Shown in pieces: positions 10,486-44,208 of a DNA stretch of 64,000 bases. This DNA is from SAR324 cluster bacterium. GTDB taxonomy: Bacteria; SAR324; NAC60-12. The position numbers and the translations under genes were made by a program. The notes beneath the pieces are model-generated. The model made no database searches. It was not told the origin of the DNA and worked only from the letters and a program-made list of their open reading frames with translations. Position 1 is the first letter of the stretch. Each line of letters begins with the position of its first letter. Location of the stretch: NCBI GenBank assembly GCA_015232315.1, contig JADFZZ010000003.1:220732-284731 (forward strand). The letters are read 5' to 3'.

Positions 10486-11064
10486 ATGTCACGGGTATTG
10501 ATTCTCACGCTGGTATGCATGCTGTCCAGTGCTTTACCACTACAGGCCCTGGAAACCGCACCCCGGATAACCGACCGGGAACTCATAGAGATTCTGACTG
10601 AATTGAAGGAAGGGCAAAAACGACTGGAGCTTCAGATCACGAATCTTCAACGTGAAATGGATAAACGGTTTGAGGCGGTGGACAAGCGATTTGACGCTGT
10701 TGATAAACGGTTTGAGGCTGTTGATAAGCGGTTTGAGGCTGTTGATAAGCGGTTTGAGGCTGTTGATAAGCGGTTTGAGGAAGTGAACCAACGGTTTGAG
10801 ATGATGAACAATCTGATCATCGGCATTCTCACTGCGTTTGCCGGAATCGTGGCCGCTACCATCAGCTTTGCGCTTTGGGACAGAAGAACCATGATTCGTC
10901 CCTTTGAAACCAAAGTGAAGCACATTGAGGACAGGCAGGACGCCCTCGAAACGGAAATGTTGTCAGACCGCAAAAAATTCCATCAGTTTGTGGAAGCTTT
11001 TCGGACTTTGGCTCAAACAGACACCAATGTCGCCAAAGTCCTCAAATCATTTTCCTTGATGTAA
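10486..11064 (+). CDS. Coiled-coil membrane-anchored protein with DKRFEAV repeats
   Basis: A 192-residue protein of unknown function. Residues 1-22 form a signal-like hydrophobic start (LILTLVCMLSSALPLQA). Residues 25-105 are predicted coiled coil containing seven near-identical heptads of DKRFEAV type. One transmembrane helix follows (about 107-128, LIIGILTAFAGIVAATISFAL), then a basic segment and a second helical region. The repeated heptads come from a 21-nt DNA repeat, so length may vary between strains. ATG 10486 has the ribosome site AAGGAA. Similar repeat-heptad proteins are usually annotated only as hypothetical, and no partner is evident nearby. Confidence 0.75.
   Translation: MSRVLILTLVCMLSSALPLQALETAPRITDRELIEILTELKEGQKRLELQITNLQREMDKRFEAVDKRFDAVDKRFEAVDKRFEAVDKRFEAVDKRFEEVNQRFEMMNNLIIGILTAFAGIVAATISFALWDRRTMIRPFETKVKHIEDRQDALETEMLSDRKKFHQFVEAFRTLAQTDTNVAKVLKSFSLM
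10660..10806 (+). repeat. 21-nt tandem repeat inside the coiled-coil gene
   Basis: Seven consecutive 21-nt units (starting 10660, 10681, 10702, 10723, 10744, 10765 and 10786) each encode one heptad. The units at 10702, 10723 and 10744 are almost identical, differing at one or two bases, while the outer ones have drifted. This points to recent expansion by slippage or unequal exchange. Confidence 0.85.
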
Positions 11065-11070
11065 CTCATT

Positions 11071-11290
11071 TTAGATTTTCACATGATCAGGAAAGCAGGG
11101 AAGCCGAACGGAATGGCTTAAATTTCCCTGAGAATTATAAAAAGTCATTTTTCCGGATTCGTCACAAAGCTTCACTTCTTCTGTACCCTGTTCAAAATAG
11201 AGTTCCCGTGAAGGCATCATAGCATTTCGTTTGGAATGAACAAAATGTTCCCTGATCTGGCTGAAATGAGGTTGTTTCAGCCAGAATGTG
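11071..11290 (-). other. Possible frameshifted C-terminal extension of the giant pseudopilin
   Basis: Immediately after the stop of the 991-residue gene the minus strand continues open for about 73 codons in the next phase (+1), ending at TAA 11071-11073. The encoded text (with FSQIREHFVHSKR, SRELYFEQGTEEVKLCDESG and FYNSQGN) has normal residue composition and Cys content like the upstream gene, and does not look like an antisense shadow. It may be the true C terminus separated by a frameshift or assembly error, or a small gene starting at an internal ATG. It has no recognisable ribosome site. Confidence 0.4.
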
Positions 11291-14266
11291 TTATTGCAGG
11301 TATTCACAGTTAGAAACACATTCAAACCGGATCGTAGTTTCACTGTTACAACCAACATCCGGGATTGGCCAAGGCATATTGATTCCCTGAAAATCATTGA
11401 TGGTTTTTGTGACTATTTTAGTGTTTGGAATACCACCGCCAAGCGCAACCGATTTATCAGCAAGATTCCACCATGCGACCAAGAACCGACCTTCCAGTTT
11501 AACCCTAATCTGGGTGTCAGACCTTAAATTCAGGCTTTGAGGATTGCTGGGAGCTGTTGTGTAATTTTTTGTTTTTCCACTTTGAGGAATGCCTGCAATC
11601 TGCTGACTCTGATCGTCAATGTGTCCGCGGATGTTATTATCCACGCAAATAGCACCGCTCAATTTCACATTGATACTGGTAATGCGATATTGGGCGACCC
11701 CGATCTCAAATCGCATGTCAGGATCGGCATAAGCTTTACAGTCAGGATCATTGACACAGTGCTCCAGACAATACGTTTCATTAGCCGCGGAACATGTGTA
11801 GATGATCTGATCAATTTCGAAGCCTCGATACAAGGCAGTGGCCTTGTTGATCAAATCGCCATATTTCCAGCCAAACAGAGACCACAGGCTTCGGGCCGCA
11901 CATCCCACACAGTCAATTTCCACATTGATGTTATTGGGTGGAGAAAGAATGGGTGGTGACGAATTAAACTGCAATTTTTGACCTGTGATCAGATCCAGTG
12001 TTTGTCCCGCAATCGAAACAGTATTGCTTCCTGTATGAATTTCCGGTTTCCACAATACGGTTTGGTTGCCTGTAACCTTGATGCTATCTTTTAGAAAGAT
12101 TCCCATCCAGTCCAGATGAAGATCTGAAAAATGAAATCGTGTGGTGGCAATCTTGCTGCCGTCAAATACAACGCTTCCATAAGATAAGCGGTTGCTCAAA
12201 TTGACAGGAATGCTGACATCACTGACATAATTGTCCTGCTGTCCCGGATTGGCAGGATTATCGGTGATTTTGGCTGTCAATGTTTTTTTATAGGTATTTT
12301 GTTTCACATGTCGGGTACAAAGAGAAACCATGTCTGAAAAATCAAAAGACACATTTGAATTATTGGTTTTACACAATGGATTTCGATCGCCCTGACAGCC
12401 AGGGACCCTGAGACCATCATCATGATAATCTTCTGCGGTTGGCAACAAACTCAATACAGAAGACCAGGCACCATGCTGCCAGTTTGCACGGAACTTATAA
12501 AAATAATCACCCTGAACGGTTGGCCATTTGGCAACACCTGTGGTTGGATTGGAAGGATCGACATCAAACCATTGTGGATCCGCACCCGGACAACCGATTG
12601 TTCCTGTTGATGAGTCTGAATGCCAAATCGGAATCAACGGAGGAATATCCAATGTTTCAGGCTGGGCATACAAAAAGGCATCTACCGTTTTTGCCGGATC
12701 GGGGCCTTTTTTCACGCAAAGCGCAAAATAAGAAAACGCGTCACCTTGAAAAAATGACATGTTAAAGGCCGCATTGCCATTCATCCACCACATTGTGGGA
12801 TCAATTCCAAGATGGGCAATGTAGGTTGGTGATATATGTCCCACTGTTTCCAGGGCAAAAGTACCTCTGATTTCTTTAAAACCACCGCCATCATCGCACA
12901 GATATGCCGCCCGTTCCTGGTTAGGGAATGAACCACCCAACAGCGTATTCAGCATGCCTGATAACTGTACCGTGTAGCCTCTCACATAAACATCTTCTAC
13001 AAATTCAGTTCCAATGCCCTGTTTCACACAAAGACTCAACCAGCCATTACCAATACCTACAGGATTGATGCTGACTTCAGGATTTCCTGGAATATAGATT
13101 CCTCCAGCCGCACTGCTGCGCCAGTTCCCTCGTGACACAAAACCATTTCCGCAGGAATCTCCCGGAGAAACCTTGGCATTGACTAAAATCACATCCAGCA
13201 ATCCCTGTTTTTGTGTTTGACTGGGCCAGTCACTTGGGTTGCCCTCATTCCAGCCTAAAGGAATATCATCGCCTTCACTGTCATTGTCCTGCCTGTTGAA
13301 TCCTTTGCTGTAGGGCCGACCGATAGCCGCGGTAGGAACGGCAAGAGTCCAGTCACCACTTTGTTTATTGGCCCAGAGAAATCGTTCGCCCAGAGGATCT
13401 CTCAGATAGAACTCACTCACTTTCAGACCTTTGTTGGTGAAGGCTGATTTGATGATGTTTGGCCGATTGTTTCTGTTCAAGCCCGCATCACGGTAATCAA
13501 TATAGTTGCCGCCATTGTATTCCGGACTTAGATGATTGACATCGAGCAAAGTGATTCCAGCATTTTTCTGGGTTTTATCCAGTTTTTCCAGCCTGTCTGT
13601 GGTTTCCTTGCCAAACGCCAGAATAAAATGATGGACGTTTTTCCAGACACCCCGATCGTCGCCTTTGAACATTACATCGACAATTCCATCCAGACCGGAA
13701 TTATTGAGAATACGGGCATTCCATTGTTTTATTGTGGTATATTGGTCACAAATGGACACTTTTTTGGGAACCGGGGTGGTTCCATCCTTGTTATCCGTAT
13801 CAATGTCGCCATTGGCGCCACAAGTCATCAACATGAAAGAATGGGTCTGGCCTGTTGGTGGTGTGAATACCTGTGCGTTTTCATAAAATGCAGGATTAAC
13901 AACATAAATATACGGCCGTCCCCAGTAATCTTTCTGGATTTGATTAGGCGATCCTGACAGGTATGGTCCTTTCCACTGAGTGAGAGACCCCGGTTTGATG
14001 ATCAAATCTTCCAACAACGTCGGAAGTGCCCCGGTATCCTGATAATAGGTCGTGATCGCCTCTGCGGTTAGTTTCAGTTTATCCTGTGACCAGTCCTGCT
14101 TTTGCTGTGACCGAATTTTATAATACAAGGGAGTTGCGACGACCAGCGTCATGGCAATTCCCATCAATGCGGTAAAAACCATGGCCGCTGAAAAACCAGA
14201 CCGTTTACGTTGTCTGTCCCCATGATCCAGAATTTGATGCTGCTGGACACAATGTTGAAGTTTCAT
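11291..14266 (-). CDS. Giant GspG-like pseudopilin (991 aa)
   Basis: The N terminus is pseudopilin-like: a basic leader (DRQRKRSGF), a hydrophobic helix (about 25-48) and a polar helix with DKLKLTAEAITTYYQDTGALP, then the GspG-type sequence WKGPYLSGS and DYWGRPYIYV (about 95-118). The residue five after the predicted cleavage glycine is Met, not the usual Glu. Only the capping minor pseudopilins of the GspK type normally lack that Glu. Unlike any GspG (about 140 aa), roughly 800 further residues follow, rich in Gly, Asn, Trp and paired Cys (GCPGADP, CVGCAARS, CSAANETYCLEHCVNDPDC), suggesting a large disulfide-bonded extracytoplasmic head. ATG 14266 follows AAAGGGG. It is third in a three-gene pseudopilin run. 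Function unknown. Confidence 0.75.
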   Translation of the reverse strand: MKLQHCVQQHQILDHGDRQRKRSGFSAAMVFTALMGIAMTLVVATPLYYKIRSQQKQDWSQDKLKLTAEAITTYYQDTGALPTLLEDLIIKPGSLTQWKGPYLSGSPNQIQKDYWGRPYIYVVNPAFYENAQVFTPPTGQTHSFMLMTCGANGDIDTDNKDGTTPVPKKVSICDQYTTIKQWNARILNNSGLDGIVDVMFKGDDRGVWKNVHHFILAFGKETTDRLEKLDKTQKNAGITLLDVNHLSPEYNGGNYIDYRDAGLNRNNRPNIIKSAFTNKGLKVSEFYLRDPLGERFLWANKQSGDWTLAVPTAAIGRPYSKGFNRQDNDSEGDDIPLGWNEGNPSDWPSQTQKQGLLDVILVNAKVSPGDSCGNGFVSRGNWRSSAAGGIYIPGNPEVSINPVGIGNGWLSLCVKQGIGTEFVEDVYVRGYTVQLSGMLNTLLGGSFPNQERAAYLCDDGGGFKEIRGTFALETVGHISPTYIAHLGIDPTMWWMNGNAAFNMSFFQGDAFSYFALCVKKGPDPAKTVDAFLYAQPETLDIPPLIPIWHSDSSTGTIGCPGADPQWFDVDPSNPTTGVAKWPTVQGDYFYKFRANWQHGAWSSVLSLLPTAEDYHDDGLRVPGCQGDRNPLCKTNNSNVSFDFSDMVSLCTRHVKQNTYKKTLTAKITDNPANPGQQDNYVSDVSIPVNLSNRLSYGSVVFDGSKIATTRFHFSDLHLDWMGIFLKDSIKVTGNQTVLWKPEIHTGSNTVSIAGQTLDLITGQKLQFNSSPPILSPPNNINVEIDCVGCAARSLWSLFGWKYGDLINKATALYRGFEIDQIIYTCSAANETYCLEHCVNDPDCKAYADPDMRFEIGVAQYRITSINVKLSGAICVDNNIRGHIDDQSQQIAGIPQSGKTKNYTTAPSNPQSLNLRSDTQIRVKLEGRFLVAWWNLADKSVALGGGIPNTKIVTKTINDFQGINMPWPIPDVGCNSETTIRFECVSNCEYLQ

Positions 14267-14327
14267 AATTCCCCTTTAATCTGACGGATTATAAACAAAT
14301 CTGTGTTGGTATTCACAAGGGTCTGAA

Positions 14328-15167
14328 TCAGTATGCCGGATGAATGTCATCCAGTTTTTCTGCCGCGGTGGATGTTTTACCATCGGGTCCCCGACTATAA
14401 AAATGACGTTCATTCACATCCCAGCTCATGAAATTCCCCCAGGCGTCTCTGGCCGGGATAGACTGAAACATTTCCATGAATGCGGAAGGACAATGTTTAT
14501 CAGCGGCACAGTTTGTTCCGCATTTTGCTCTTAAATTGATCCATTCCGTTGCATTGGCAATGCTTGCTTTAATTTTAATAGCAGTTGTCGGAATGCTTAG
14601 GAAATTGGAAACAGAACAGTTATTGTTATCCACCAGTTCGTCAAACAGAGGAATCTGGCCTAAACCAGCGTTCATCAGTGTTGTATTGTCATCAATCACT
14701 TTATCCTTGGCCTTGTCATAAACAGTTTTGGCTGAAATCATATAAGTCAGGTCATCGGAAGTGCTGGGCTTTCCATCGGGGCCGTTCGATTTGAGTGTTG
14801 CCTTGTACATCACTGCAGGATCAGGAGTGTAGATATAGTCATTTCCCCAGGCATCCCTCTTAATACTGGTGGTGGAACCTGACGCATAGGGACCTTTCCA
14901 TGTACTGACAGCAGGTGGAACGGTGGGATCAATCACCAGATCTATCAGATTGGCGGGAAACCGGCCTTCGTCCTTGTAATAACTTTGCAACGAGGCTTCG
15001 AGGTTGAACACTTCTTTCTTGGTGTTGGAACTTTTAACGGTGTCATTCACCATGGAAGTGATCGGTGCCATGGTTCCAGCCAGAATAGAAATGACGCCAA
15101 GTGAAACCATGACTTCCATTAAGGAAAAACCCCATCGTCGTTGTTGTGTCTTCGTTGTTTTTTTCAT
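14328..15167 (-). CDS. GspG-like type II pseudopilin
   Basis: A 279-residue prepilin-like protein. Near residue 13 is a canonical type III signal, GFSLMEVMVSLGVISILAG, with the conserved Glu at +5 and an N-terminal helix that would anchor in the inner membrane until assembly. The next part matches the GspG body (ASLQSYYKDEGRFP, STWKGPYASGS, RDAWGNDYIYT). A second DAWGNFMSWD and YSRGPDGK with DDI sits at the C terminus, as if the distal GspG body had been duplicated around an inserted, Cys-containing segment. It is twice the usual GspG length. The gap to the next gene is 61 nt, and a GGGG ribosome site precedes ATG. Confidence 0.85.
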   Translation of the reverse strand: MKKTTKTQQRRWGFSLMEVMVSLGVISILAGTMAPITSMVNDTVKSSNTKKEVFNLEASLQSYYKDEGRFPANLIDLVIDPTVPPAVSTWKGPYASGSTTSIKRDAWGNDYIYTPDPAVMYKATLKSNGPDGKPSTSDDLTYMISAKTVYDKAKDKVIDDNTTLMNAGLGQIPLFDELVDNNNCSVSNFLSIPTTAIKIKASIANATEWINLRAKCGTNCAADKHCPSAFMEMFQSIPARDAWGNFMSWDVNERHFYSRGPDGKTSTAAEKLDDIHPAY

Positions 15168-15190
15168 ATGTCCCCTTGTTCAATTATTTG

Positions 15191-16237
15191 TTAATACCAA
15201 CCTGGGATGTCATCCGTGTTTGCCGCTAAACTGTCATTGGTCCTGTTTGGACCCGAACTATAAAATTGATAATTGGTACGATCCCACAGCAACGGTTTTC
15301 CCCAAAGATCTTTTGAGGTGTGGAGATCAAAAAAGATTTGAAGGAAAATAGCGGGACATTCCAACGATGTTACGGCGTTGCACTGTACTTTAAATTTACT
15401 GATCTTGCTGCCGCTCACTCCGGCTTCTGCCAAAATTACCGCAATCTCAGGATCCGTATATTTGGGATCTCCGTTCTCTTTTTTCTCGAGTTTGAGAAAC
15501 GCATTGGTGGGATACATGAATTTGGTATAGCGATCTGCAATTGAAGTGCTGGAAAGTTGATTGAACAGCTCAATCATGGCATCGGGGGCTTCATTGGGAT
15601 TTTTAGGATTTGAAGACGCAACTCTTAAACCATAGCGGTCTTTCATTTTCTGAACTGTTTCCAGTCCTGAATATTCCATGGCGGCACTGATTTGACTAAT
15701 GGTATGCTTCAGATAACGATGCTGGATAATCCGTGTTGAAACAGGGTAGACCATATCATCACTGTTTTCTTTTTGCAGAATCCAATGCGTGCCGACCTGA
15801 TTATCCAAAGCATGATTTGCTCCATTGGACGCAAGCACTGCCACACTGGCCTCGATTGCCCAATAGGGTGTCACAGACGTTGTCTGGACAGTATCACCAC
15901 CATCAATCCGGTCATAAACATACCGTTGGTTCCAACTGTCTTTCAGCGTACTGCTGGTCACATATGGACCATAATAGGGCGTCACATTGCCGACATTGGT
16001 GATGAGTTGATCCAACCCTGTGTTGGACGTTCCGTAAGTATCATTTGGTAATTTCCCCATATCTCTGAAATAACTCAGCAATCCTTGTTCCAAAAGTAGG
16101 ATTCTGTCTTGTGTTCCCGTCACATTAGTCTGATTCAATACTTTTGTACCCATGGGCATAATCACTGCTGTCAGGACGGACAAGACCCCCAGACTCAGCA
16201 ATATTTCCATCAATGTAAACCCTTTTTTCAAACGCAT
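15191..16237 (-). CDS. GspG-like type II pseudopilin
   Basis: First gene of the pseudopilin run, 348 residues. MRLKKGFTLMEILLSLGVL is a textbook prepilin peptidase site (cleavage after Gly6, Glu at +5) and hydrophobic helix. The body repeats GspG elements: LEQGLLSYFRDMGKLP, YYGPYVTSS, KDSWNQRYVY, and at the C terminus KDLWGKPLLWD and YSSGPN with DDIPGWY. As in its neighbour, these two GspG-like segments bracket an insert of about 180 residues. The leader before the ATG (AAGGGGAATTATG) is the same as that of the giant third gene, supporting origin by duplication. No other secretion-system gene (GspD, E or F) is in the window. Confidence 0.85.
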   Translation of the reverse strand: MRLKKGFTLMEILLSLGVLSVLTAVIMPMGTKVLNQTNVTGTQDRILLLEQGLLSYFRDMGKLPNDTYGTSNTGLDQLITNVGNVTPYYGPYVTSSTLKDSWNQRYVYDRIDGGDTVQTTSVTPYWAIEASVAVLASNGANHALDNQVGTHWILQKENSDDMVYPVSTRIIQHRYLKHTISQISAAMEYSGLETVQKMKDRYGLRVASSNPKNPNEAPDAMIELFNQLSSTSIADRYTKFMYPTNAFLKLEKKENGDPKYTDPEIAVILAEAGVSGSKISKFKVQCNAVTSLECPAIFLQIFFDLHTSKDLWGKPLLWDRTNYQFYSSGPNRTNDSLAANTDDIPGWY

Positions 16238-16289
16238 AATTCCCCTTCAATCAAATAAAACAGGTGATCAATTTGAGCGGATGAGTGAA

Positions 16290-17239: not shown

Positions 17240-18478
17240 ATGAGACGACGTGTTGTAGTCACTGGACTAGGATGTGTTTGTCCTTTGGGAAATGATGTTT
17301 CAACAGCATGGAAACAATGTTCTGAGGGACAATCAGGAATCAGCAGAATTACCCGCTTTGATCCGGCAGATTTCCGCTGTCAGATTGCGGGAGAAGTTAA
17401 AAATTTTGTCATGCCTGCCCTGATTCCGCCCAAGGAAATTAAAAAAATGGATACTTTCATCCATTATGCTATTGCGGCCACAGAACAGGCTATTCTTGAT
17501 TCAGGACTGCAAATCAGTGAATCTCTGGAAACCGAAGTGGGGGTTTCCCTGGGGGTTGGCATCGGAGGACTTCCTACCATTGAGTCCTGTCATGAAACCT
17601 TGATGACAAAGGGGCCATCACGGATCACTCCGTTTTTTCTACCAATGACATTGTTGAATATGTCTGCCGGGCAAATATCCATCTTGTTCCGGGCACGTGG
17701 CTACAATGCCTGCACGGTTTCGGCCTGCGCTTCGTCCAATCACTCGATTGGCAATGCTGCCAGAATTATTGAACGAGGCGATGCCAAAGTCATGATCACG
17801 GGTGGTGCTGAAGCTACCGTTACGCCGCTTGCAATGGGAGGGTTTTCAGCCATGAAGGCCTTGAGTACCCGCAATGACATGCCTGAAAAAGCCAGTCGCC
17901 CCTATGATCGGGATCGTGATGGTTTTGTCCTGTCAGAAGGTTCAGCGGTACTGATTCTTGAAGATCTTGAGTTTGCCAGGGCTCGTGGCGCGAATATTTA
18001 TTGTGAAGTGACAGGCTATGGGTTCAGTTCTGATGCCTATCATGTCACATCGCCTTCAACAGACGGACCTGCCCGATCCATTGCCATGGCTCTCAAAGAC
18101 GCAGGATTAAATCCGGAGCAAGTGGATTATATCAATGCGCATGGCACTTCAACACCGGTTGGTGATATCAATGAACTGAGTGCCATAAAATTAGCACTTG
18201 GAACCGATGCGGCATCAAAGGTTTCAATCAGTTCCACAAAATCCATGCATGGGCACCTGCTTGGAGCCGCTGCGGCACTTGAAGCGGTACTCACTATCAA
18301 GGCAATGCAGAATAGCTTTATACCACCCACCATTAATATTGAGAACATCGATCCGGAATGTGATCTGGACGTCACACCCAATTCCGGTAAGGAACGGGGC
18401 ATTGAGCATGCAATTTCAAATTCTTTCGGATTTGGTGGAACCAATGCTTCTCTCGCTTTTTCCAAATTTAAGGGTTAG
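17240..18478 (+). CDS. fabF: 3-oxoacyl-ACP synthase II
   Basis: Condensing enzyme that elongates acyl-ACP with malonyl-ACP in fatty-acid synthesis. The 412 residues show the thiolase-fold Cys-His-His triad: Cys near 163 in TVSACASSNHSIG, His near 300 in NAHGTSTPVGD and His near 337 in MHGHLLGAAAALEA. The C-terminal NSFGFGGTNASL glycine loop is intact. The start ATG 17240 has only a weak ribosome site but gives the usual MRRRVVVTGLG opening. It is cotranscribed with acpP, and the next gene overlaps or abuts its end. Confidence 0.97.
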   Translation: MRRRVVVTGLGCVCPLGNDVSTAWKQCSEGQSGISRITRFDPADFRCQIAGEVKNFVMPALIPPKEIKKMDTFIHYAIAATEQAILDSGLQISESLETEVGVSLGVGIGGLPTIESCHETLMTKGPSRITPFFLPMTLLNMSAGQISILFRARGYNACTVSACASSNHSIGNAARIIERGDAKVMITGGAEATVTPLAMGGFSAMKALSTRNDMPEKASRPYDRDRDGFVLSEGSAVLILEDLEFARARGANIYCEVTGYGFSSDAYHVTSPSTDGPARSIAMALKDAGLNPEQVDYINAHGTSTPVGDINELSAIKLALGTDAASKVSISSTKSMHGHLLGAAAALEAVLTIKAMQNSFIPPTINIENIDPECDLDVTPNSGKERGIEHAISNSFGFGGTNASLAFSKFKG

Positions 18479-18482
18479 TGAC

Positions 18483-19520
18483 TTGAGGCGGGCATTTGCC
18501 ATTCAATTGCTTTCATTCGGGTTGGCCTTTACAGCGACGTGTGGCGTTGTGTGGTCCGCACCGGATCCCGTCAAGGAACTTCCTCCTGGGCAATGTCAAA
18601 ATCCAAAACCATACACGGATTTAACCCATTGCCGGTTCTCTTCCCGTTCCGCTCTGAAAAATAAAGATTTGAGAGGTGTGAATCTTTCCCGACAAAACTT
18701 GAATCGTTTTGATTTGCAAAACGCTAATCTTCAGGATGCCATACTTGAAAAAACAGAGTTGCGTTATGCAAATCTTAGAGGGGCGAACCTGCAAAATGCC
18801 AATCTGACAGGCGCACAGTTAGACAGTTCCATCTGGAGAAAAGCTTTGCTGTATACCGCAAAAATGCATAATGTTTCAGCGTTAGGCATGGACATGTCCG
18901 GTGTCAATTTGTCCAAAGCCGATCTGACAGGTGCTTTTTTATATGGTGCGGACTTTACAGGATCCATTATGGATCATGCCAATCTTCGTCGAGCTGTGCT
19001 GGATGAAGCGAATCTGACGGAGGCGAATATGAATAGTGCTGATTTGAGAGAAACATCTTTACAATTCACGACTCTCGAAATGGCTGATCTGCATGACGCC
19101 CGTCTGGAACACGCCAAGTTACTGTTGGTCAATATTGAAAATACTAATTTTCAGAATACCCGTGGTATTCCCGAATGGATTACTAAAGGAATGGATGAAC
19201 AGGGAATTCACCGTAACAGCATTCTGGAACAATCTATCCGGGATGGTTTTCGAAAATTACAGGGGGTGGATTTGTCAGGTGCGGATATGGTGGGGCTGAA
19301 TCTGAACTATGCGGATCTTTCCTATGCGAACCTTGAGTACACTGATCTGGAAGGTACCACGTTGAAAGGCGCGAATTTGCGTGGAACCAATTTGAAAGGC
19401 GCCAATCTGAAAAATGTGGATATGACAGGAGCTTTTCTGGATGAGGCAAATCTCGATTATGCCAACATGCAGAATATTCAGGGTATTTCTGACTCCGTGA
19501 AAGAAATGTTTGCACAATAA
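18483..19520 (+). CDS. Exported pentapeptide-repeat protein
   Basis: From TTG 18483 the 345 residues start with a clean signal peptide (RRAFAIQLLSFGLAFTATCG, then VWSA). Residues about 55-340 are then largely pentapeptide repeats of A(N/D)LXX type (for example DLQNANLQDAIL and GANLRGTNLKGANLKNVDM), which fold into a right-handed quadrilateral beta helix. TTG is preferred because AAGGG lies 8 nt upstream and the signal peptide is then compact. ATG 18444, inside the fabF end, is the alternative. The role is unknown. Because it is exported it is unlikely to be a gyrase-mimicking pentapeptide protein. It is followed by copper-chaperone genes on the same strand. Confidence 0.8.
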   Translation: MRRAFAIQLLSFGLAFTATCGVVWSAPDPVKELPPGQCQNPKPYTDLTHCRFSSRSALKNKDLRGVNLSRQNLNRFDLQNANLQDAILEKTELRYANLRGANLQNANLTGAQLDSSIWRKALLYTAKMHNVSALGMDMSGVNLSKADLTGAFLYGADFTGSIMDHANLRRAVLDEANLTEANMNSADLRETSLQFTTLEMADLHDARLEHAKLLLVNIENTNFQNTRGIPEWITKGMDEQGIHRNSILEQSIRDGFRKLQGVDLSGADMVGLNLNYADLSYANLEYTDLEGTTLKGANLRGTNLKGANLKNVDMTGAFLDEANLDYANMQNIQGISDSVKEMFAQ

Positions 19521-23673: not shown

Positions 23674-25425
23674 CTACCAATTTGGAACTTCGCCCGCGTA
23701 TTCATGGCAAACCTGAATCAGCGTCTGGATGTGTGGTTGTGTGCGGAGCGTGTCAGGCAAACTGTCAATGATTTGCAGGAAAGCATCATAGATGACCTCT
23801 TTCCTTGCACCCAGTTGATCCAGTGGATGCATGAGAAAAGCATCGGTTCCTGAGCGCAGAATTTGTTGATCTTTGGCAGGAGTGGGAACAAATTCCAGCC
23901 ATAAAAAATAAGATTGCGGAGTGAACAGACGTCCCCCTGAACCGGTTTTGACAAAGCATGTGGTGCCCAGCACCAGGAGTTGCTGACCAAGAACTGTGGG
24001 TAAGGCCAGGCAGCGTTCGGTGTAGGTCGTTTCAGAGCCTGTCTGACTGGAGGCAAATTTATGGAGGGTTGGCACGACAGAGGTTCGGGAGTATTCTTCG
24101 TAATAATTCAGAACGTCCTGTACAAACTGTTCAAACTCATTGCTCAGATTTCCTTTTTTATAACTGAAAAACAGGGTGAAATAACGGGACGCTTTTTCCT
24201 GATAATCCTGCGGAAAATTTTTTCCGAAGCGCATGCGGTCTGTTTTGACAGGTGAAATGAATTTTTCCGGATATCTTCGATCCTTCACATCTGAACGCTC
24301 TTGTGTGGTGACCGGTTTCTCCTGAGCTTGCGGCACAAAAATTTCTTTTACTTTATGCATGAATGCCTGAAACCATGAGGAGGGTTTTTCCTGGTGCTGT
24401 TCAGCATATTGAATCACATCATCCATGATGTGGCTGTAAATACTTGTCTCCTGGATCATCTCGTCATCAAAGCCCAACTCGACATTTTCGTCCGTTTCTT
24501 TTTTGATCCTGTTTCTGATGTCAAACACCATCTGTCCCAGTATATTCGACGGCAAACGTTCCAGCATGTTTTTTTCTGCCTGGATCACCTGTTCACTTTG
24601 CAGGAATTGCCGGTGTCTCAAGTTGGTATTGAGTTGTTTGGAAATCTTGGTCCAACTCGAATATTCCGCATAAACATCAGCTTTGATCGAATTGAGGGTT
24701 GGTACAGGATTGGTGTTGAACTGATCTTCGTTACGCAGAACTACAAGCAGCCAGTGTTGCAGAAACTGATCTCGCCATTTCAGGTAGATCGGGAGTTGGG
24801 GATGTCCCAGAATATCATGAATCAGATCCGCGTATTTTCGGACCATCTGGCTGTAGGGCACTTCGCCCTCAATAAAAATGGGGCCTTTGTGCGTAGCAAT
24901 GTCCTTAAGCCAACGGAAGGTCAATTTCTGATTGGGGTCTGGTTTGAGCGAGGGTGGAATCAGCGCGATGAAGCTTTGGGTCAGGGAATCAATCAAGGCT
25001 TCCAGTTCATAGCGTATCTGTTGCTCAACATTGGGTGAGTCAAATAAAGTTTTGGTGGCCAGTACACTGCGGATGACACTTTGGGACGCATCCAGTTTTC
25101 TGAAAAGAATTCGGAAATAGGCCTCCTTGTGTTCCAATCCCCCCTGAAACAGTAATTTCAGAAATAATGAGAATTTATACTGGGAATCAAAGAATTCGTA
25201 GTTTTCCAGAAACACTTTTTTTTCTACACTGGAAAATCCTTCAAAGACCAGATCCAGTTTTTCACAGACACGGATCGCGTTATCAATGCTTTCAGAATCG
25301 AACTCACCTCCTGAAACCCTGAGGCTGGTCATGTCCTGAATAATACTTTCCATATCCTCACTGCTGAGCAGTGAGTGTGGCAAAATGACTGTTTCTTCAG
25401 TCTTGAAGCGAGCTGAATTGTTCAT
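23674..25425 (-). CDS. Unknown 583-aa cytoplasmic protein
   Basis: Not recognised. The 583 residues have no signal peptide or transmembrane helix and are rich in charged and aromatic residues with a helical look. A polar, Pro/Lys-rich linker (around QAQEKPVTTQERSDVKDRRYP) splits it into an N-terminal domain of about 350 residues and a C-terminal domain of about 190 with FTLFFSYKKGN and CFVKTGSGGRLFTPQSYFLW. It lies upstream of the CIRCE/groSL promoter on the same strand with a 46-bp gap, so readthrough into groSL is possible. No homologous domain can be named from the sequence. Confidence 0.75.
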   Translation of the reverse strand: MNNSARFKTEETVILPHSLLSSEDMESIIQDMTSLRVSGGEFDSESIDNAIRVCEKLDLVFEGFSSVEKKVFLENYEFFDSQYKFSLFLKLLFQGGLEHKEAYFRILFRKLDASQSVIRSVLATKTLFDSPNVEQQIRYELEALIDSLTQSFIALIPPSLKPDPNQKLTFRWLKDIATHKGPIFIEGEVPYSQMVRKYADLIHDILGHPQLPIYLKWRDQFLQHWLLVVLRNEDQFNTNPVPTLNSIKADVYAEYSSWTKISKQLNTNLRHRQFLQSEQVIQAEKNMLERLPSNILGQMVFDIRNRIKKETDENVELGFDDEMIQETSIYSHIMDDVIQYAEQHQEKPSSWFQAFMHKVKEIFVPQAQEKPVTTQERSDVKDRRYPEKFISPVKTDRMRFGKNFPQDYQEKASRYFTLFFSYKKGNLSNEFEQFVQDVLNYYEEYSRTSVVPTLHKFASSQTGSETTYTERCLALPTVLGQQLLVLGTTCFVKTGSGGRLFTPQSYFLWLEFVPTPAKDQQILRSGTDAFLMHPLDQLGARKEVIYDAFLQIIDSLPDTLRTQPHIQTLIQVCHEYAGEVPNW

Positions 25426-41293: not shown

Positions 41294-43903
41294 TCAGAGC
41301 AAAAATTGCGCCTGATTTACTGTTTTTGTCGAAAAGAATCTCTCTAAAGAGTCCATGCCGGAAATTGAAGAGACCTGCGCCCGAAAATGTTTGGGTTTGT
41401 GGGGAGCCGTCAGATCATGTTTGGATTTTACAATAAGTTCATAATCAGTACCTGTGGTCCACGTTATCCTTTTTAAAGGTTTGCTAAACGGATTATGCCA
41501 ATAAGGAAATAAGGAAATCACTTGTACCTGTCTGTGTTTCCGATGTGTGCCTTCTGTTACCCAATGAGGAAATAAGGAAGTCACTTGTACCTGTCTGTGT
41601 TTCCGGTGTGAGGCATGAATCATGGTCTTGTCCAATCCGGTTTTTTCCGGATAGTCAGCCTTCTCTGCTTCCAGTTTGGCCGGCATCATGGCTGATATGG
41701 TTTCCGTAACCTCTGGTCGTTCCTCAACTGCCCCTGTTTCAAAACTGGCATAAAGCGAGGAAGCATTATTTTCATTGTATTCTGGAATTGGATCTTCTCT
41801 CAACTGAGAGTCGGCAATTTCGGGTTGTTCTGAAATGTTTTCCTCACTGGATGTGCTTAGGGTTGGTTCCTGCATCAGGGAAATGTGTTCCTCAAGATTG
41901 TTGTTTTCCTGTACCGGCTCCGGTTGTTGCTCAGTCACGGTTCCCGTATCTTGTGTTGAGTCGTTGTTGCTGTTGATTCGATCCATCGCCATGTTGTTTT
42001 CCGCTATTATATAAGTTGGTGCTGTTTGTTGAACCCGCCCTGATTCCTGTTTCACTGCCTCTGAGAAGGTTTGAGGCGTTGAGTGAATTGGGAAAGGCTC
42101 TGCCTGAAGTTTTTCGGGTTCTTTCTGTTCAAGGATTTGAAGCTCTTTTTCTTTTTCAAGAGAGGCTTTTCGAAGATTCTCGATTTCTTCCTGTTGTTGT
42201 TGGATGATTTTCTGTTGTTTCTGAAGTTCAACTCTTTCAAAAATTTCGATTTCTTTTTCTTTTTCAAGAGAGGCTTTTCGAAGATTCTCGATTTCTTCCT
42301 GTTGTTGTCGGATAATTTTCTGTTGTTGTTCGATTTCTTCTGTCTTGTTTGACGATAAATTTTCGATGTCCTTCTGATGTTGCTCAATCAACTTTTCTTT
42401 TTCCTGAAAGTCAGAGGTCTGATTTTCCAAATTTTCGACCAATACCGATTTTTTTCTGGAGTTCCAAAAAAACCAGCCACCAATCAACCCCAGCATCAAC
42501 CCCGGAATAATCCATAGATAGCCGCCAGAAGTCTGGTTTCCGGATTGAGTAGCGCCAAGATCCGTTTGAGGAAACTCTGAAGACATTGCCTGAATTGTGG
42601 AAGATGGATTGTTCACTGCGGCAATGATTTCAGAAGATTCAGGAACTGGTGCGTTCAGAATATGAATTTCCGGATAGGTCCTGGAATAGGTTCGAGTGAA
42701 TTTTCCATGGAGCGGATCTTTACTTTCGATGGTGATTTCCACAGTTAGTGCTTCAGGAGTTTTCCAATCTGAGCCAGTTATTTCCCAGACCAGATCAAAA
42801 GAAGAGGATGAGGCTCCGGGGATGCTGACAATAGAGGGTGTGACACCGGAAGGAAACTGAGGTTGAAACAGACTGAATATCTGACAATCATTTTTATAAC
42901 AATAGCGATTGCTGGGAATAATGGGGAAACTGAAGGGTTCAGACAAGATGAGTTGATTCTCGGTTTGGTGTAAAATCAATTGAGTCGGATTTGATGTTTT
43001 ATCCCATTGAAGCAGTTTTCCAAAATCCGCAATGACGTTCGGAACGACTTCATAGCCAAATCCCAGCAGATAACTCACAACACCTTCAACAGTTTTATTT
43101 CTGTTTTCCGTTGCGTTCTCTCCCTTTAAAATTGTTGACACACGATCAGTCATCGCAGGATATGCGTTATCAGGATCAGTTTGACTCCAGATCACTGACG
43201 TTTGATAAAAACGTTTGAATTGCTCAAGCATTTGAAATGCCTGGCTCATATCATACAGACGCTGGAATGAAGCGAGTTCAGAATATTCTTCTGAGGTATT
43301 GAAATCATAGTCGGTAATTAAAAAAACAAACAGACGTCCTTCAACAGTGAGACAGTTGTTATTGTTAGCGTTGGTTGTTTTTTGAGATAAAATTGAAGGC
43401 ACGGCCAGAGCGGAAAGACCATAGTCATAATTATAATCCAGAGCAGGATCGCCATTGGGAGAAAGAGTTTGATTCCGATCATTCATCCGCTGAATGACTT
43501 TGTCTTTCTCACAGGTGTTCCATATGGGTGAAAGATAATTTTTCACAGTAAATATCTCACCATTTTGGGGCAACCAACCAAAATTGAACATCTCCAGATG
43601 ATCACCATCCTCAAAAGGTGGAATCAGCGATCCGGGAGTTGATTCCTGATTCAGAATCATGGAAAAACTGGTTGTGATTAGTTTTGCGATACGGGAACGC
43701 CTTTCCGAATAAATTGTATCTCTTGGCAATAATTGTCTGGTCACGGTTCCATCGCCTGAGCGATAAGAAACGCCCCGTACCATGGAACCTGTTCCATTGA
43801 TCAGAATGATGAAACGATTGTTTTGTTTCGGAGCGGCACAGAGAGCCTCTGCAAATAAAAACATGAACACCATGACACCACAGATAACTCCCTTTTTTTT
43901 CAT
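41294..43903 (-). CDS. Large vWA-like / single-helix / coiled-coil protein
   Basis: 869 residues from ATG 43903, preceded by GGGAG. Order: a signal peptide (GVICGVMVFMFLFAEALCAA) and a von Willebrand A-like domain (about 25-290). The domain starts FIILINGTGSM, where the metal site DxSxS is altered (Asn and Thr replace Asp and Ser), and contains FVFLITDYDFN. A beta-sandwich-like part follows (about 300-430), then one transmembrane helix (about 460-480, LWIIPGLMLGLIGGWFFW). Next are a long Gln/Glu/Lys coiled coil with a 36-residue repeat (about 490-600), a low-complexity acidic region, and a basic C-terminal region with a 21-residue duplicated HRKHRQVQV block. It spans periplasm and cytoplasm. 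Function unknown; a sensor or scaffold is inference. Confidence 0.75.
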   Translation of the reverse strand: MKKKGVICGVMVFMFLFAEALCAAPKQNNRFIILINGTGSMVRGVSYRSGDGTVTRQLLPRDTIYSERRSRIAKLITTSFSMILNQESTPGSLIPPFEDGDHLEMFNFGWLPQNGEIFTVKNYLSPIWNTCEKDKVIQRMNDRNQTLSPNGDPALDYNYDYGLSALAVPSILSQKTTNANNNNCLTVEGRLFVFLITDYDFNTSEEYSELASFQRLYDMSQAFQMLEQFKRFYQTSVIWSQTDPDNAYPAMTDRVSTILKGENATENRNKTVEGVVSYLLGFGYEVVPNVIADFGKLLQWDKTSNPTQLILHQTENQLILSEPFSFPIIPSNRYCYKNDCQIFSLFQPQFPSGVTPSIVSIPGASSSSFDLVWEITGSDWKTPEALTVEITIESKDPLHGKFTRTYSRTYPEIHILNAPVPESSEIIAAVNNPSSTIQAMSSEFPQTDLGATQSGNQTSGGYLWIIPGLMLGLIGGWFFWNSRKKSVLVENLENQTSDFQEKEKLIEQHQKDIENLSSNKTEEIEQQQKIIRQQQEEIENLRKASLEKEKEIEIFERVELQKQQKIIQQQQEEIENLRKASLEKEKELQILEQKEPEKLQAEPFPIHSTPQTFSEAVKQESGRVQQTAPTYIIAENNMAMDRINSNNDSTQDTGTVTEQQPEPVQENNNLEEHISLMQEPTLSTSSEENISEQPEIADSQLREDPIPEYNENNASSLYASFETGAVEERPEVTETISAMMPAKLEAEKADYPEKTGLDKTMIHASHRKHRQVQVTSLFPHWVTEGTHRKHRQVQVISLFPYWHNPFSKPLKRITWTTGTDYELIVKSKHDLTAPHKPKHFRAQVSSISGMDSLERFFSTKTVNQAQFLL
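41506..41625 (-). repeat. 63-nt duplication in the vWA-like gene
   Basis: Two adjacent 63-nt units (one ending near 41563, the next near 41625) encode HRKHRQVQV followed by SLFP and an aromatic residue. They differ at only a few bases, so the duplication is recent. Confidence 0.75.
42137..42352 (-). repeat. 108-nt tandem duplication in the coiled-coil part
   Basis: Two 108-nt units (same motif at 42157 and 42265) each encode QQKII, QQQEEIENLRKASLEKEKE and neighbours. Sequence between copies is nearly identical, showing recent expansion of the coiled coil by 36 residues. Confidence 0.8.
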
Positions 43904-44208
43904 CATTTTCTCCCAAAAATTATTTTTTAAAAAATGTTGAGACTCTCTTTTCCGCATATCGAGGAGATGACAAATAGTCAAAATATAATGTTTTGACCTG
44001 CTGTCATGGTTCCATCTGTTGGAGTTTCTTCAGAATTCCATGGGCACGGGAAAGATTTTTGATCTGTGATGATTAGAGACAAGATGTAAAAACCAGATCA
44101 TCGAGTTTTAGGTGCGGAGATTGCTGGATTGAGTTTCGGATTTTATTAATAGTTGAGTCCTAATTGATTAACTGGAAGAAAGAACCTTCAGACATCTTTG
44201 GCCTTAGC
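43904..44208. other. Gap upstream of the vWA-like gene
   Basis: 305 bp between the PIN toxin gene and the vWA-like gene, both on minus. It contains a 49-bp copy of the 3' end of the lipoprotein gene at 45065 (separate entry). The rest has no frame or clear promoter. Confidence 0.4.
44009..44057. repeat. Left 49-bp direct repeat flanking the PIN toxin module
   Basis: These 49 bases equal 45070-45118 at 48 of 49 positions. The second copy is the 3' coding end of the lipoprotein gene; this one is an orphan fragment. Together they bracket the Phd-PIN module as direct repeats 1,061 bp apart. Confidence 0.85.

Follow-up and report, generated by a model that had tools for sequence, protein, structure and literature searches.

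What are three pilin-like genes doing on a contig that holds no secretin, platform or ATPase gene, and what is the role of the 991-residue protein that one of them encodes? The genes lie in the window, by which we mean the whole 64,000-nucleotide stretch of SAR324 cluster bacterium DNA that was analysed, and are separated from each other by gaps of 23 and 61 bases. Their layout, with the ribosome-site leaders, is as follows.

15191..16237, minus strand: pilin 1, 348 residues, a double-head pilin (two GspG-type motifs) with the leader MRLKKG/FTLMEI, Glu5 and Pro22
14328..15167, minus strand: pilin 2, 279 residues, a double-head pilin with a leader ending in QQRRWG/FSLMEV, Glu5 and Pro22
11291..14266, minus strand: giant modular pilin, 991 residues, with a 24-residue leader ending in RKRSG/FSAAMVF, Met5 and Pro22
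16235..16247, minus strand: leader AAGGGGAATTATG of pilin 1, ribosome site and start
14264..14276, minus strand: leader AAGGGGAATTATG before the giant gene

The original prediction described these as three neighbouring minus-strand GspG-like genes of 348, 279 and 991 residues, and their products indeed score 33, 51.1 and 28.6 bits, respectively, against PF08334 (T2SSG), each above the cut-off of 21 bits. All three carry a class III signal, consisting of a basic leader, Gly at -1 and a hydrophobic helix, and in all three the homology to a pilin head continues past the N-terminal helix, as seen with PF08334 and, for the third protein, with a profile from which the giants were excluded. The prepilin motif PF07963 passes its cut-off of 21.2 in the 348-residue protein (21.5), falls slightly below it in the 279-residue protein (20.1) and finds no match in the 991-residue protein. 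The trio, with scores of 48, 72.6 and 27.5 bits that all fall short of the 88.85-bit cut-off of the GspG equivalog TIGR01710, are not true GspG proteins. The ribosome-site leader said to be common to genes 1 and 3 was also recovered, as two exact copies of AAGGGGAATTATG ahead of these two genes and none elsewhere in the window, where 0.12 copies are expected by chance with up to one mismatch allowed. The edge of the cluster had been placed at 11071 and needs to be moved, as the third gene stops at 11291; what ends at position 11071 is another ORF that overlaps it (11071-11397), which was considered and rejected as part of the third gene.

Several other frames of the window merit a brief description. 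Convergent with the giant gene is a plus-strand ORF of 192 residues (10486-11064) with about six tandem seven-residue repeats (VDKRFEA). The minus strand holds an ORF of 583 residues without a Pfam match (23674-25425) and another of 895 residues (41294-43981), for which Pfam likewise gave no match and which has a long coiled coil and perhaps a degenerate vWA-like start (ILINGTGSM). A pentapeptide-repeat-like ORF on the plus strand (18198-19520) has a mechanical start that overlaps the preceding 412-residue ORF, by eye a beta-ketoacyl synthase, and its true start is probably further in.

The head of the small pilins is doubled. The motif D-x-W-G ... S-x-G-P-x ... DD-I occurs twice in both the 348- and the 279-residue protein, and the same doubling is seen in four proteins encoded by contigs C58 and C22, as well as in proteins of the related genomes G004, G010 and G005. 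Profiles of the first and second halves match each other over 50 columns (E=2.1e-6, probability 89 in the profile comparison) and, together with the doubled motif, this leads us to regard the two small proteins and their kin as double-head pilins. The structure model of the 279-residue protein has a mean pLDDT of 64.4, with about 75-85 across most of residues 40-155 and an unreliable second half; its sole good matches in the PDB are GspG 3g20 (E=1.6e-3) and PulG 5o2y (E=4.3e-3), both with a probability of 1.00 over ~106 columns. The trio resembles GspG (PF08334, TIGR01710) in its helix and first head motif, but differs in its sub-threshold TIGR01710 scores, the second head copy, Pro22 and a much larger size. 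A scan of genome contigs with the 279-residue protein returned only two distant pilins (L015 in Planctomycetota and L016 in Aquificota), and no relevant paper on tandem or doubled pilin heads turned up in a search of the open-access literature. In genome G076, a 353-residue pilin with apparently three head motifs adjoins an MshEN-like ATPase (L150:5564-6625).

The 991-residue protein can be divided into a pilin part and a graft, within which several smaller elements were considered.

13262..14215, minus strand: pilin part of the giant, residues 18 to ~335, with the helix, the first head motif and a degenerate second head motif
11294..13261, minus strand: grafted C-terminal region, residues 336-991, rich in Cys, Trp and Gly
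12971..13156, minus strand: repeat module 1, residues 371-432, with the pattern C..G.W...LCVK, common to the 757-residue sister on C58
12659..12901, minus strand: possible repeat module 2, residues 456-536, ending in FALCVKKG; weak
12290..12595, minus strand: possible repeat module 3, residues 558-659, ending in VSLCTRH; weak
11729..11803, minus strand: PAN/apple-like stretch, residues 822-846 (PF00024, E=0.093, sub-threshold, a hint only)

Residues 18-302 are matched by a profile to which no giant contributed (E=2.5e-23), and the likeness to pilins thus extends far past the helix; a likeness confined to the N terminus, with which the original prediction had reckoned as the outcome that would tell against it, is not what was found. 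The second head motif is degenerate (RDPLGERFLW...YSKGFNRQDNDSEGDDI, residues ~287-335 in alignment A1), and the second-half model alone does not match it significantly. As the pilin-like part runs to ~302-335, the graft comprises ~655 residues and not the ~800 first estimated. The extra region is Cys-, Gly- and Trp-rich as predicted, with 18 Cys, 60 Gly and 18 Trp, and is probably disulphide-rich; a Pfam scan of it gave no family above cut-off. Module 1 has a leave-one-out profile score of 17.6 that was reached by none of 500 shuffles, the scores of modules 2 and 3 were reached by 6 and 12 of 500 shuffles, respectively, and the three copies of the C..W..LCVK module in the 757-residue sister were supported in leave-one-out tests against shuffles, the test being biased towards success because the segments were picked by eye. 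A structure model of the whole 991-residue protein was unusable (pLDDT 30.5), and a PDB sequence search with it yielded nothing useful. With extra sequence added C-terminally to a pilin part, the protein has the overall arrangement of a modular pilin.

Two sister cassettes repeat this arrangement elsewhere in the genome. The cassette on C58 encodes a 757-residue giant followed by proteins of 296, 289 and 272 residues, and that on C22 a protein of 295 residues followed by a giant of 1537; the giant gene is last in two of the three cassettes and first in that of C58. Single-head pilins of the same genome are found on C12 (213, 193 and 200 residues) and C32 (206 residues). The giants-excluded profile, most of whose length is covered by the match to each of the three giants, matches residues 11-310 of the 757-residue protein and residues 55-293 of the 1537-residue protein, and in the latter the extra region contains recognised Pfam domains, namely Laminin_G_3 (1.6e-26) and fn3 (3.1e-7), both known as modular-pilin grafts (PMC8179133). 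The third protein of the trio was originally noted to lack Glu at position 5, and it does have Met5 where the sister giants have Val and Leu, a hydrophobic replacement like that in GspK. By comparison, Glu5 is present in all 13 other pilins listed, 10 of which are from the same genome; the probability that three losses of Glu5 among 13 proteins would coincide with the three giants is 1 in 286, counted simply and without regard to relatedness.

The absence of Glu5 could also be read as a sign that the 991-residue protein stands outside the filament, its N terminus being a membrane anchor or Sec signal and the protein itself an adhesin, either anchored or secreted, which perhaps binds to the pilus. 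Grafted double-head proteins with a Sec-like start do occur in G004 (518 residues, L085:5667-7223), G010 (638 residues, L084:3709-5625) and G005 (957 residues, L086:9673-12546), where the double-head profile match starts at position 35-36, just past the pilin helix, and the grafts contain PMP-type repeats, fn3 and a CarboxypepD_reg-like stretch (below its cut-off); judged from sequence, such proteins would carry their grafts on soluble double heads. For the 991-residue protein we consider such a reading unlikely, as Gly-1, an aromatic residue 1 (Phe or Tyr) and Pro22 are in exact register behind a basic leader in all three giants, and the match to the pilin profile starts at the leader. The same register (G-1, F1, P22) is the reason why a Sec signal was rejected for the 991-residue protein.

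If the trio does enter a filament, its machine must be sought elsewhere in the genome. Genome-wide searches found no secretin, T2SSF or T2SSE gene on the 340-kb contig of the window (C3) and placed all of these on other contigs, in agreement with the original statement that none is near the trio. Contig C1 encodes a secretin with N0/STN, proteins of 173 and 251 residues, a 526-residue M-like protein, a T2SSF platform and a T2SSE+MshEN ATPase, thereby combining the MshEN ATPase, secretin and platform of an MSHA-type machine, and no pilin genes were found in this locus. The one prepilin peptidase of the genome is encoded on C6, and a PilT on C5. With its MshEN ATPase, an M/O/P-like set (named from gene order and appearance, as Pfam gave no match for these proteins) and PilT nearby in relatives, the C1 machine is more like a type IV pilus apparatus than a type II secretion one.

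In relatives, double-head pilins and a machine of this kind are linked. The operon of G004 consists of PilT, a 307-residue double-head pilin, secretin and a 196-residue single-head pilin, then ATPase, platform, M, O and P; that of G005 contains a 284-residue double-head pilin, secretin, single-head pilin, ATPase, platform and M; in G010 the same block is split over two contigs; and in G257, from another phylum, a 236-residue double-head pilin is encoded between the platform and M genes of a similar operon. The parts of the C1 machine are orthologous to the operons of G004, G010 and G005. Identity of the C1 proteins to those of G004/G010 is 65% for the ATPase, 55% for the platform, 35-37% (~36%) for the secretin and 31-32% for M, and to the relatives' operons 29-34% for O and about 30% for P, G005 and G257 being more distant. 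PilT joins the double-head pilin operon in one genus (G004/G010), where it lies directly upstream of the double-head pilin and is 72% identical to the C5 PilT. Furthermore, double-head pilins (E<=1e-30) and the M-like C1 protein are found in the identical 4 of 52 genomes of the class, which is supportive and not a strong statistic, as the four genomes fall into three genera of a single family and each of them contributed to the pilin alignment A1. Outside the class, related pilins were found in 3 of 331 sampled genomes at E<=1e-25.

The genome also contains a T2SS and a further ATPase and platform gene (C75, C11), and the trio could therefore be assembled by a machine other than that of C1. 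The T2SS is scattered, with GspF, G, H and I on C25 (L013), no J or K seen beside them, and a large secretin on C31. As the trio has GspG-like heads and no GspK was found in the genome, which has a T2SS with GspG, H and I on C25, the three proteins might be extra pseudopilins of this T2SS, with the giant replacing the missing GspK tip. This we regard as quite unlikely: the double-head pilins of relatives are in a C1-type operon and not in a T2SS operon, the trio has Pro22, as do most other pilins of the C1-type set, against Val22 in the C25 GspG, and the TIGR01710 cut-off is not reached. A pseudopilin-like GspK was also not found in other members of the family, most of which have GspG without double-head pilins; PF03934 matches in relatives were rejected as GspK, being located in 767-917-residue frames that are not pseudopilin-like. 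The trio is not part of a T2SS operon, the T2SS genes being on C25, C31 and elsewhere, and a full T2SS near it was considered and rejected; the standard operon in which the original prediction had seen a threat to its reading is thus not there. The profile search for a GspK-type tip domain suggested at that time gave no PF03934 match in the genome, so that a K-type cap has no support at the level of sequence, and the proposed link to GspK holds only as an analogy of size, hydrophobic residue 5 and position at the 3' end of the cluster. That the trio is a decayed or silent, functionless duplicate of an old pilin operon, as might be supposed from the lack of a nearby machine gene and the giant's degenerate second head motif, is highly improbable in view of three open frames over 5 kb, intact ribosome-site leaders and equally intact sister cassettes.

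We propose a model, to which we assign a probability of roughly 0.6, in which the C1 machine assembles a type IV filament for which the trio forms a dispersed pilin cassette, with the Glu5-less giant as a modular tip. The prepilin peptidase would cleave the leader off all three proteins, and the C1 machine (MshEN-type extension ATPase, platform, M/O/P-like alignment proteins and secretin) would insert the pilins into the filament, which the PilT-like motor of C5 may retract. The 348- and 279-residue double-head pilins, with their Glu5, would be able to occupy positions below the tip. The 991-residue protein would be the first subunit and would cap the filament, since its residue 5 is hydrophobic and no subunit would dock above it. 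The tip complex from which type IV filaments grow is capped by a subunit without Glu5 (PMC10191384), and a first subunit has been proposed to be marked by its large size, a hydrophobic residue 5 and a gene positioned at the 3' end (PMC5207764), all three of which the giant of the trio fits. The ~655-residue graft would be displayed on the outside of the cell and would most likely serve as an adhesin, a role suggested by analogy as the graft has no recognised domain. As the two further cassettes on C58 and C22 carry different grafts, one machine could show alternative tips. The custom filament with a large head and a distant assembly machine envisaged in the original prediction is strongly supported by these observations, except that the machine looks like a type IV pilus and not type II. 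More tentatively, double-head pilins may be the building blocks of a type IV pilus subtype with one pilin-less machine and scattered cassettes, whose Glu5-less giant tips would be switched or mixed for binding specificity.

Grafts of lectin and other types are already on record for modular pilins (PMC8179133, PMC9934059). PilB and PilC of Streptococcus sanguinis likewise have an N-terminal pilin part and a large C-terminal graft with proposed tip display (PMC8179133, PMC9934059), and the C22 sister giant has the same kinds of graft (Laminin_G_3 and fn3) as known modular pilins. However, PilC keeps Glu5 and it is the small PilA that lacks it, whereas here graft and Glu5 loss are in one protein; the doubled GspG-type head and the scattering of the genes in cassettes away from the machine are further differences from the S. 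sanguinis proteins. Like GspK/PilK, the giant is the largest of its set, has a hydrophobic residue 5 and is encoded last in two of three cassettes, but it has a GspG-type fold with an added C-terminal region instead of a head insertion, and no PF03934 match. CofB and TcpB of type IVb systems are also large tip-associated minor pilins with extra domains; both keep Glu5 (PMC5207764) and their head type differs. The machine itself is similar to MSHA/type IVa machines in its MshEN-bearing ATPase, secretin with N0/STN, platform and M/O/P-like proteins, but the G004/G010 locus includes a PilT gene, and MSHA is described without PilT (PMC10191384).

The modular pilins studied so far are encoded within the pilus locus, whereas here a pilin-less machine is separate from three cassettes that differ in their grafts, and one protein would unite the capping role of a subunit without Glu5 with a large graft, on a doubled head. 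If the model is true, this organism would provide a natural test system for a Glu5-less subunit both starting and capping a filament. It would also be a system in which to ask how a graft of ~70 kDa passes the secretin, and whether expressing another cassette changes the specificity of the pilus.
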